Source: Collinsella aerofaciens
GTDB lineage: Bacteria; Actinomycetota; Coriobacteriia; Coriobacteriales; Coriobacteriaceae
Direction of reading: 5' to 3'
DNA: 39,144 nt
Assembly: GCF_015552075.1 (NCBI RefSeq)
Contig: NZ_JADNDZ010000070.1
Location: forward strand, 1 to 39,144
The notes under the pieces: model-generated
Seen by the model: the letters and a program-made list of their open reading frames with translations, nothing else
What the model was told of the DNA's origin: nothing
Databases searched by the model: none
Position numbers and translations under genes: made by a program
Shown: positions 6,655 to 35,375 of the stretch, piece after piece
How the letters are laid out: every line of letters begins with the position of its first letter
How positions within the stretch are numbered: position 1 is the first letter of the stretch

Positions 6655-6684
6655 GGCCCGCCACATGTTTGGCGGGCCTTTGGT
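6655..6684 (+). terminator. Hairpin between the secreted-protein operon and the HtrA gene
   Basis: GGCCCGCC pairs perfectly with GGCGGGCC across an eight-base loop, followed by TTTGG and then TTATTT. It could terminate the upstream operon. It also sits only about 25 bases before the HtrA start, so it could lie in that gene's leader. Confidence 0.6.
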
Positions 6685-6707
6685 TATTTGACGAAAGGAT
6701 CGCAGCT

Positions 6708-8171
6708 ATGAGCGAGAACGATTCTCAGCGTCCCCAGGACGCGGGCAACGCCGGCGAGACCCAGCAGCAGCCGCGCGTGCAGGTGGAGTCGACGCCTGCC
6801 GACGGCAACAACATTCCCTACGTGCAAGCCTACGACACACAGACCGGCAAGCCGCTGGGCGGCCAACAGGTCGTGAACAAGCACACGGTGGTCAAGACCA
6901 AGACCAAAAAGCTGCCGATCTTTATTACGGCGCTTGCCGGCTGTGCCTGCGGCGCCCTGCTGGTCATTGCGCTCATTATGAGCGGCACGCTCGATATCGG
7001 CGGCGGCAGGAACGCCGTGACGGCGGGTGCTTCGGGTTCATCGACGCAAAAGATCACCATCGACTCCGAGGACACCACGCTGGCCGAGGCCGTCTCTGCC
7101 AAGGCCCTGCCCTCTGTCGTTTCCATTACCGCCACTTCGAGCGGCAGCCAAAATGGCTCGCTTTCGCAGTCTGCCGACGAGCCGGATAGTTCGGGCAGTG
7201 TCGGTTCGGGCGTGGTACTCGATACCGAGGGCCACATCCTCACCAACAACCACGTGGTCGATGGCTATGACCAGTACGTGGTTACCATGGACGACGGCAC
7301 CACCTACGAGGCCGAGTTCGTGGGCAACGACGCCTCGAGCGACCTGGCCGTCATCAAGCTCAAGGATGCCGACGCTTCCAAACTCACCCCGATCGAGATC
7401 GGCGACTCCTCCAAGCTCAACGTGGGCGAGTGGGTCATGGCGATCGGCTCGCCGTTCGGCAACGAGCAGTCTGTCTCCACGGGCATTGTGTCGGCGCTGT
7501 ATCGCTCCACGGCCATGAGCTCTACCAACGGTAACACCATCTATGCCAACATGATCCAGACCGATGCCGCCATCAACCCGGGCAACTCCGGCGGCGCGCT
7601 CGTCAACGACAATGGTGAGCTGGTGGGCATTAATTCGCTTATCGAGAGCTATTCGGGCTCCAGCTCGGGCGTGGGCTTTGCCATTCCGGTTAACTACGCC
7701 AAGAACATTGCCGACCAGATCATCGACGGTAAGACGCCGGTGCACCCGTACCTGGGCGCCACGCTTTCGAGCGTCAACGCGCTCAACGCCCGCACCAACA
7801 AGCTGAGCACCGATAGCGGCGCGTATGTGGCGAGCGTCGTTGAGGATGGCCCTGCTGCCAAGGCCGGCATCCAGGAGGGCGATGTCATTACCAAGCTGGG
7901 CGACGACGAGATTACGAGTGCCGATGGCCTGATCATCGCCCTGCGCAGCCACGAGGTGGGCGAGAAGGTCGAGATCACGCTCATGCGCGGCAAGGAAGAG
8001 AAGAAGGTCACCGTCGAGCTGGGCTCCGATGAGGAGCTGCAGAACCAGCAGCAGGATGACAGCGCGACCGACACCGGCAACGGCGGTATTACCGACGAGC
8101 AGCTGCGCCAGTATCTGGAGGAGCTGTTGGGCCAGCAGGGCCAGGGTCAGGGCTACGGCCAGGGTTACTAA
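6708..8171 (+). CDS. HtrA/DegP-type membrane-anchored serine protease with PDZ domain
   Basis: A 487-residue protein quality-control protease of the cell surface. Residues 1 to about 65 are a polar, glutamine-rich cytoplasmic segment. A single membrane anchor follows (LPIFITALAGCACGALLVIA). The trypsin-like domain holds His in TNNHVVDGY (about residue 182), Asp in SSDLAVIKL (about 211) and Ser in NPGNSGGALV (about 292). A PDZ domain follows (GAYVASVVEDGPAAKAGIQ, about 365-445). The C-terminus is a low-complexity Q/G tail with repeated GQG and GYGQGY. The ATG at 6708 follows GAAAGGA at suitable distance; the frame is open further upstream but without a site. This layout is the usual one of actinobacterial and firmicute HtrA. 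It ends 28 bases before a strong terminator and is probably monocistronic. Confidence 0.93.
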   Translation: MSENDSQRPQDAGNAGETQQQPRVQVESTPADGNNIPYVQAYDTQTGKPLGGQQVVNKHTVVKTKTKKLPIFITALAGCACGALLVIALIMSGTLDIGGGRNAVTAGASGSSTQKITIDSEDTTLAEAVSAKALPSVVSITATSSGSQNGSLSQSADEPDSSGSVGSGVVLDTEGHILTNNHVVDGYDQYVVTMDDGTTYEAEFVGNDASSDLAVIKLKDADASKLTPIEIGDSSKLNVGEWVMAIGSPFGNEQSVSTGIVSALYRSTAMSSTNGNTIYANMIQTDAAINPGNSGGALVNDNGELVGINSLIESYSGSSSGVGFAIPVNYAKNIADQIIDGKTPVHPYLGATLSSVNALNARTNKLSTDSGAYVASVVEDGPAAKAGIQEGDVITKLGDDEITSADGLIIALRSHEVGEKVEITLMRGKEEKKVTVELGSDEELQNQQQDDSATDTGNGGITDEQLRQYLEELLGQQGQGQGYGQGY

Positions 8172-8198
8172 CGAGCCATTTCGCACATGCCGAAGCCA

Positions 8199-8240
8199 GA
8201 GGGGCTGTCCCATCAACGCGGGACAGCCCCTCTTTTCTTA
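8199..8240 (+). terminator. Intrinsic terminator of the HtrA gene
   Basis: A perfect 13-base stem (GAGGGGCTGTCCC with GGGACAGCCCCTC) around an eight-base loop, followed by TTTTCTT. Confidence 0.92.
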
Positions 8241-8241
8241 T

Positions 8242-8272
8242 TGATCCGTTGGGGACGGAGGAAAACGGATCA
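8242..8272. repeat. Palindromic repeat family C, copy 1
   Basis: TGATCCGTT pairs with AACGGATCA around a 13-base loop containing GGGGACGGAGG. The reverse complement matches bases 16832-16862 at nearly every position, so this is a dispersed element rather than a simple terminator. Confidence 0.65.
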
Positions 8273-8307
8273 CTTGTGGCTGGCAAGAGGCCTGGTTCGT
8301 AATGGTC

Positions 8308-8510
8308 TGGACAGTTAGTTCAGATACGTATAAATCTGGGGCAGCTTGGGATGCGTTTTGAGCAATTTTTGATTGGGATGGGGTTGGAATGGGTGTTTGG
8401 GAGGGCGAGCGGGACGTTTACATGGTCTCAGGGAGCCCAAATTAGTTGAAACAGGGGTGTTCGTGTCTAATCCAGCTCTAGGATTTATACGTATCTGAAC
8501 TAACTGTCCA
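8308..8510. repeat. 203-base module with perfect 29-base terminal inverted repeats
   Basis: The left arm (8308-8336) begins TGGACAGTTAGTTCAG and ends ATAAATC. The right arm (8482-8510) is its exact reverse complement over all 29 bases. Each arm contains the self-complementary core ATACGTAT. The 145 bases between the arms hold no open frame of note. The layout suggests a miniature inverted-repeat element or a very stable hairpin RNA. I see no clear target duplication outside the arms. Confidence 0.75.
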
Positions 8511-8546
8511 CCCCAGTCTGGCGGCTGCCGATTCGGTGCGGTTTGA

Positions 8547-10847
<2,301 letters not shown>

Positions 10848-18831: not shown

Positions 18832-18896
18832 AAACCGTCCCAACATTCGACGTTTTTTGCCAATATCAGGAAAAGCATCGAATGTTGGGACGGTTT
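18832..18896. repeat. Palindromic repeat family A, copy 1 (also a terminator)
   Basis: A perfect 19-base inverted repeat whose left arm is AAACCGTCCCAACATTCGA (18832-18850) and right arm 18878-18896. The spacer contains CGTTTTTTGCC and GAAAA. A run of T follows the right arm, so it should also terminate the ABC exporter operon. Confidence 0.85.
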
Positions 18897-20034: not shown

Positions 20035-20074
20035 GGACGCTTTGGTCCTTCTTCGGGGTGCTGTGGGCAGGCAA

Positions 20075-20135
20075 ACCATCACAACATTCGACGTTTTTTG
20101 CCGAAAACGAGAAAAGCACCGAATGTTGTGATGGT
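20075..20135. repeat. Palindromic repeat family A, copy 2
   Basis: A perfect 16-base inverted repeat, left arm ACCATCACAACATTCG (20075-20090), right arm 20120-20135. The spacer again carries ACGTTTTTTGCCGAAAA. It lies 40 bases after the nuclease-fold gene. Confidence 0.85.
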
Positions 20136-20267
20136 CTGTGCTGAGGATGGGCTTGGAAAGTCCGTTTTGCTCGAAGCGACCTGTCCTGTCGTACGGGTGT
20201 CGGCATGATTCTCTCGTGGGGTATTATGTTTTCCGAAGAATAAAACGCCGCGTGAGGGGAGGGCTGC

Positions 20268-24306: not shown

Positions 24307-24309
24307 GAA

Positions 24310-24370
24310 ACCGTCACAACATTCGATGAAAATCGCGATTTTGCCGAAAAACGTCGAATGTTGTGATGGA
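24310..24370. repeat. Palindromic repeat family A, copy 3
   Basis: TCACAACATTCGA (24314-24326) pairs perfectly with 24354-24366, and the arms extend outward with one G-T mismatch. The spacer holds the self-complementary AAAATCGCGATTTT. It starts just after the MFS stop codon. Confidence 0.85.
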
Positions 24371-24396
24371 TTGTGCTGAGACCCGAACACCACAAG

Positions 24397-35310: not shown

Positions 35311-35375
35311 AAACCATCACAACATTCGATGAAAATCGCGATTTTGGCGAAAAGTATCGAATGTTGTGATGGTTT
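35311..35375. repeat. Palindromic repeat family A, copy 4
   Basis: Perfect 20-base arms: AAACCATCACAACATTCGAT (35311-35330) and its reverse complement at 35356-35375. The spacer GAAAATCGCGATTTTGGCGA nearly equals that of copy 3. Confidence 0.88.

Follow-up and report, generated by a model that had tools for sequence, protein, structure and literature searches.

A 203 bp module located in the htrA–ligA interval of Collinsella aerofaciens (positions 8308–8510 of the window, i.e. the whole 39,144-nucleotide stretch analysed here) is, on balance, probably a DNA-geometry site: a protein-bound, wrapped or looped stretch with a structural spacer. A protein gene, an RNA element or a simple transposon is the poorer account of it. 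It combines inverted arms at whole-turn spacing with a phased spacer largely free in its letters, and related modules receive IS insertions in time with the helix. A nucleoprotein structure is the simplest account of these four properties taken together.

Module anatomy and distribution

The arms of the module (8308–8336 on the forward strand, 8482–8510 on the reverse strand) are perfect reverse complements at 29/29 positions, which far exceeds a chance origin, and when lengthened to 34 nt (8303–8336 and 8482–8515) they match at 94%. They enclose an interior of 145 nt (8337–8481), and ATACGTAT within the module is self-palindromic. Hence, the original prediction of a 203 bp unit with perfect 29 bp inverted arms and a self-complementary core is borne out. 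The left arm consists of a tip (TGGACA, 8308–8313), a core common to three genera (GTTAGTTCAGAT, 8314–8325) and a tail (ACGTAT, 8326–8331), followed by AAATC, which is common to the right arm; the core-to-core length is 191 bp. The interior is private in sequence to this locus (locus A of arm family 1) and constrained in length. No other inverted repeat in the 39 kb window pairs arms of at least 18 nt with a long spacer, the remaining five of the six pairs with such arms having spacers of 4–27 nt.

The upstream ORF (6669–8171, forward strand) is taken, following the first reading of this DNA, to encode an htrA-like protease, and the downstream ORF (8619–10847, forward strand) is on the same grounds presumed to be ligA, an NAD-dependent DNA ligase. 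A terminator-like stem-loop (8198–8233, forward strand) with 14 bp arms and an 8 nt loop follows htrA and is separate from the module. The window also holds four copies (18832–18896, 20072–20138, 24308–24372 and 35311–35375) of a stem-loop repeat with the arm AAACCRTC(A/C)CAACATTCGA and a loop of 13–27 nt, which form a dispersed hairpin family distinct from the paired-arm modules.

A BLAST search of the module against its own genome (G000, 126 contigs) showed that the arms recur on other contigs and the interior does not. The 10 arms found correspond to five family-1 modules: A (in the window), B (upstream of pth) and E (in hypF) are intact, while C and F are each interrupted by an IS. With up to three mismatches allowed, the arm is present in 17/43 genus genomes and 20/396 class genomes, and the core pair GTTNGTTCAGAT/ATCTGAACNAAC occurs at module spacing in 19/65 family genomes, covering 3/6 genera. 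All named GTDB matches to the arm are Collinsella, with C. aerofaciens in the majority. These matches, together with a pth identity of 97–99%, place the window in the aerofaciens group. The arm search proposed at the outset thus revealed a multi-copy, patchy element, as opposed to one that occurs once and keeps its position throughout the genus. A 15-base arm pattern also matched 94 viral contigs, a pattern this short being weak evidence of a phage link.

The arm tail is lineage-specific. The aerofaciens group has ACGTAT or TTTGTAT, G248 (which carries eight family-1 modules) has ATGAAC/ATGCAC, G019 has ATGCGT, and both G285 and G102 have TCCGGAGC; relatives with lineage-specific tails were found in two genera besides that of the aerofaciens group. 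One genome (G020) has the TTTGTA type on both arms at all four loci, and arm types are mixed in three others (G034, G005 and G009). The copies within G019, and likewise those within G248, have only short motifs in common. Most G248 copies carry an off-centre motif, TTTCCGACAGTTTT, and modules of this genome (L315–L320, L351 and L352) display an additional T-run ~30–35 bp outside the arms.

The 41 modules extracted at several loci of the aerofaciens group are all 202–205 bp long, and interiors at different loci show no BLAST similarity. At orthologous loci the interior is shared, and its orientation relative to the flanks was identical in all 28 comparisons in which interior and flanks could both be scored. 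Inverted arms of recombination-site size around ~150 bp are what an inverton (i.e. an invertible promoter with the arms as recombination sites) would present, but the lack of a single flipped interior in these 28 comparisons makes that reading hardly credible.

Locus A is occupied in 10/20 and empty in 10/20 aerofaciens-group genomes, so that the empty site sought in relatives exists and the module behaves as an insertion. Locus B is present in 11/22 genomes and absent from 11/22, and module C accompanies B wherever examined. Module E forms an in-frame 71-codon insertion in hypF in 4/21 genomes; in all four, the left arm has TTTGTT in place of TTAGTT, and an in-frame TAG is thereby lost. The interior had been described as without coding sense, which stands for locus A and fails for the family, given that the hypF copy is translated in frame. 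The patchy presence implies that the site is dispensable, not essential.

Modules recur near pth (L102/L321/L353), carB (L105/L110/L317) and hypF (L115/L316) in different species and genera, the base position not always being identical between them. A 375-aa ORF between C and B (L023 354–1481, G000 contig C41), with DUF559 similarity that is weak and below cut-off, is gained and lost together with both modules, and in G040 an ORF 48% identical to it adjoins the pth-side module. All-against-all BLASTP of the ORFs around 26 loci linked only neighbourhoods that are orthologous, apart from a small number of weak cross-hits, hence no companion gene common to the modules and no arm-binding protein was found among them.

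Conserved arms and turn-quantised length

Among same-type orthologous alleles, variable sites amount to 18/336 in arms, 240/1087 in interiors and 182/834 in flanks, i.e. arms are ~4-fold less variable in place than either interiors or flanks. At site B, alleles of the ACGTAT and TTTGTAT types have an interior identity of 0.51–0.55 and a flank identity of 0.80–0.88, the baseline for shuffled interiors at locus A being 0.44–0.47. Taken together, these values indicate that the arms are maintained, whereas the interior can take almost any sequence. The interior at site B has either lost nearly all similarity by divergence or been exchanged in place, and arm conservation of this kind could stem from gene conversion rather than selection.

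The variability data bear on the proposal that the module is a non-autonomous, MITE-like transposon, its arms acting as terminal inverted repeats moved by some transposase, with a short phased interior selected so that the ends synapse and with pre-bent DNA preferred as target. The presence/absence polymorphism at A (10/20), B/C (11/22) and E (4/21) fits such an element, as do the terminal inverted repeats themselves, a tip of the form T(G/A)GACA common to several arm families, the occupation of one site (B) by arms of different types whose interiors are almost unrelated, and flank phasing seen without an insertion (see below). However, loci of one genome do not share interiors, and after insertion the arms stay fixed in place as the interiors drift. 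Furthermore, there is no clear target duplication at A or E, where the exact boundary is uncertain, and no transposase-bearing element with these ends, or transposase gene between such arms, was found among the arm matches in genomes of the genus (43), the family (65) and the class (396). Because a shared interior was looked for and not found, the module is not filed as a MITE. The mobile-element claim in the original prediction is supported in part, by the insertion-like, multi-copy and patchy behaviour. A plain MITE fits poorly, and we regard the MITE-like reading as rather unlikely overall, although a mobile ancestry is conceivable.

The spacing of the arms is constrained in a manner that the interior sequence is not. 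Core-to-core lengths in family 1 fall at 182–184 and 190–195 overall: 190–193 in the aerofaciens group, 192–193 for the eight G248 copies, 184, 184, 194, 194, 194 and 195 in G019, 182 and 183 in G285 and G102, and 182 (194 full length) for three copies in G040/G041. A second arm family (family 2, arm CAAATATGAGTACTG) came to light through the IS of G000, which is inserted in modules of this type; the arm is present in 21/65 genomes searched, all within the genus. The at least 50 intact family-2 pairs listed, many of which are orthologous and hence not independent cases, measure 181 (1), 189–190 (24) or 199–201 bp (25). Module lengths therefore step by one helical turn.

Helical phasing and IS insertions

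Across 26 non-redundant family-1 loci, A/T frequency oscillates in step with the arm, with a period of ~10.5 bp. The amplitude is 0.071 inside (positions 24–90) and 0.065–0.068 in the two nearest outside windows, fading by ~150 bp. In those windows, 200 sets of random anchors on the same sequences gave a mean amplitude of 0.009 and a maximum of 0.023, corresponding to a z of 15.7–16.3 for the arms. The phasing was replicated at 11 family-2 loci despite their different arms (z 12.7 inside, 8.3–9.1 outside). For the family, the arms are thus not the limit of the signal: A/T phasing runs past them by an average of ~120–150 bp on each side, an extent that would correspond approximately to 8170–8650 around the window module. 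Interior phasing relative to the arms is likewise established at the level of the family.

Scored per locus in 400 bp windows, 25/32 family-1 sites exceed the 95th percentile of the background and 23/32 exceed the 99th, as do 11/11 family-2 sites, although this background is mostly coding DNA, which limits the comparison; the phase test is independent of it. The site in the window is at the 96.8th percentile, i.e. only moderately phased, and 4/8 G248 copies fall below the 90th. Predicted curvature, as estimated with a wedge table, exceeds the 95th percentile at 18/32 family-1 and 11/11 family-2 sites and reaches the 92nd percentile at the window site.

Phase and length agree with each other. 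The arm-anchored A/T phases are 1.4 for family 1 and 4.8 for family 2, from which, by our own arithmetic, left and right arms would be in register at lengths of 182.3 or 192.8 and at 178.6, 189.1 or 199.6, respectively, close to those observed. When family 2 is anchored at the module centre, coherence is lost, as expected if the 189 and 200 bp modules are one turn apart, and it is retained in the arm-anchored analysis. De novo detection in other species added three more modules, L158, L160 and L190, whose tip is TGGACA or TAGACA and whose phasing amplitudes are at the 99.9th, 93.5th and 98th percentiles, respectively.

Candidates of similar size were rejected where phasing was absent. These are an inverted repeat at L334, rejected as a module, and the inverted repeats GGGACAGGTTTATTTTGGC (L131/L149), rejected as a further family. 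The latter, of ~180–200 bp, lie directly after pth in several genomes (L131 2147–2326, L149 2135–2333) and are possibly terminator-related.

The phasing also weighs on the suggestion that the module is a long hairpin RNA, serving as a terminator or processed RNA element. A perfect 29 bp stem does fold strongly, and the 213 nt stretch at the window module folded as single-stranded DNA has a z of −6.3 against 200 dinucleotide shuffles. However, the arm sequence itself is conserved across loci beyond what pairing demands, and interiors fold weakly, with z mostly between +1 and −2.5 and a few lower (mononucleotide shuffles). Rfam returned no match in the module, its two hits being far below the gathering score and both outside. 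The signal is instead one of DNA helical phase that reaches the flanks and agrees with IS positions, and it is lacking from the similarly sized inverted repeats after pth. The hairpin RNA reading offered by the original prediction is accordingly given up as very improbable.

Alleles without the module are informative. Flank phasing is present in the empty alleles at A and in 4/5 empty hypF alleles of the aerofaciens group, counting validly scored loci only since many hypF loci are on the other strand and could not be validly scored. The phasing is therefore not caused by the module, and either predates or survives it. This supports the choice of pre-bent DNA as a target; it is also compatible with a mobile origin.

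The IS found in G000 is a 1.5 kb element of the Mutator/IS256 family (Pfam Transposase_mut, E 7e-99). Eleven of its 16 ends in this genome lie within modules, and 5/6 pairs of ends matched by complementary 8 bp duplications are in modules. Excision of the IS in silico returns the module lengths to 190, 192, 190, 200 and 200. Family 2 yielded 14 distinct target duplications (G000 4, G007 2, G010 3, G011 1, G005 1 and G001 3, with a G010 insertion sharing its duplication with a G000 one counted once), at a near-arm distance of 71–73 in 10 cases and 82–83 in four. Two family-1 insertions lie at 68 and 79 from the arm, such that the two distances in each family are 10–11 bp apart. None of the 16 in-module insertions departs from the A/T-peak phase by more than 1.3 bp (Rayleigh R 0.95, p ~5e-7), in a sample where some loci were picked for unpaired or contig-end arms and which is biased towards insertions, not towards particular positions. 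No strong base consensus was found across these 16 targets. Three further IS256-family copies (L437, L443 and L448) lie just outside modules, separated from the arm by ~28, ~90 and ~100 bp, respectively. They are close to the A/T-peak face, being off the outside phase by 1.8, 0.8 and 0.3 bp in the same order.

Symmetric, helically periodic composition in families 1 and 2 could also denote a strong gyrase site, or a topological site of the BIME kind, where the phased DNA would be wrapped by gyrase and specificity would come in part from the arms. According to PMC6379681, E. coli gyrase sites follow a symmetric 130 bp motif with a ~10.75 bp GC period, and BIME-2 elements bind gyrase and serve as gyrase sites; REP elements are IS targets according to PMC1525189. 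Against this, the phasing in Collinsella covers ~450 bp as opposed to 130, the gyrase motif as described is without long, conserved, lineage-specific arms, and family 1 is absent from several genomes of the same clade. A gyrase site proper therefore appears a distinctly improbable identity for the module.

A putative nucleoprotein site and its known relatives

The DNA-geometry reading can be set out as a mechanism. A sequence-specific protein would bind the arms, and wrapping or looping would bring ~450 bp of DNA into a single nucleoprotein structure. The interior would be a bendable spacer in this structure, free of any requirement for particular letters. The IS transposase may recognise this bent or occupied structure and insert on one face of it. 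Least certain are the putative host role in chromosome or supercoil architecture, whether strong-gyrase-site-like or in pinning loops or plectonemes, and the placement of the module in DNA that would have been phased beforehand.

More tentatively, the modules may be chromosomal sites of a bacterial class not described before, specified by their geometry, with conserved, putatively protein-bound arms at whole-turn spacing, a sequence-free phased spacer, a nucleosome-like wrapped or looped complex of ~450 bp and a landing pad for an IS256-family element at fixed rotational positions. No description of such elements was found in the literature on Collinsella, in a search whose coverage extended to few subscription journals. 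If the proposal is true, a major gut genus carries sites whose information lies in DNA shape more than in sequence, with conserved arms at the ends, and the IS insertions are natural footprints of a nucleoprotein structure formed in vivo. It would furthermore provide a direct handle on the protein that wraps DNA at these sites, and on the way in which safe targets are selected by a Mutator/IS256-family transposase.

Bacterial MITEs, including Correia-type and Rickettsia palindromic elements, are short, mostly non-coding, have inverted termini and show presence/absence polymorphism; Rickettsia palindromic elements also occur as in-frame copies within protein genes. The modules resemble them in these respects, down to the in-frame copy within hypF, but keep only arms, length and phase, whereas MITE copies share their interior. 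In the case of the Tn5053-type 'res site hunter', the transposon finds a nucleoprotein complex that fixes the insertion position. The putative complex at the modules would likewise fix the position of the IS, which in contrast is of the Mutator/IS256 family, and no resolvase or res site was identified.

The REP/BIME elements of enterobacteria and pseudomonads are, according to PMC1525189, dispersed extragenic inverted repeats targeted by specific ISs. The modules are likewise dispersed inverted repeats that serve as a specific IS target, holding the majority of the IS ends of G000. Unlike short REP palindromes in high copy, they have arms of 24–29 nt ~150 bp apart, a fixed, turn-quantised length of ~200 bp, a free interior and few copies per genome (five in G000, eight in G248), and an arm determines where the IS inserts, through its distance and its helical phase. 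The modules share a symmetric, helically periodic base composition with the strong gyrase site of Mu (SGS) and the gyrase motif of E. coli, in which it serves wrapping (PMC6379681 and PMC12393610), but extend over ~450 bp and add two conserved inverted arms. Finally, curved DNA pins plectoneme tips (PMC6301789), making intrinsic curvature a functional feature there as in the modules, which go beyond such DNA in having conserved inverted arms at turn-quantised spacing.
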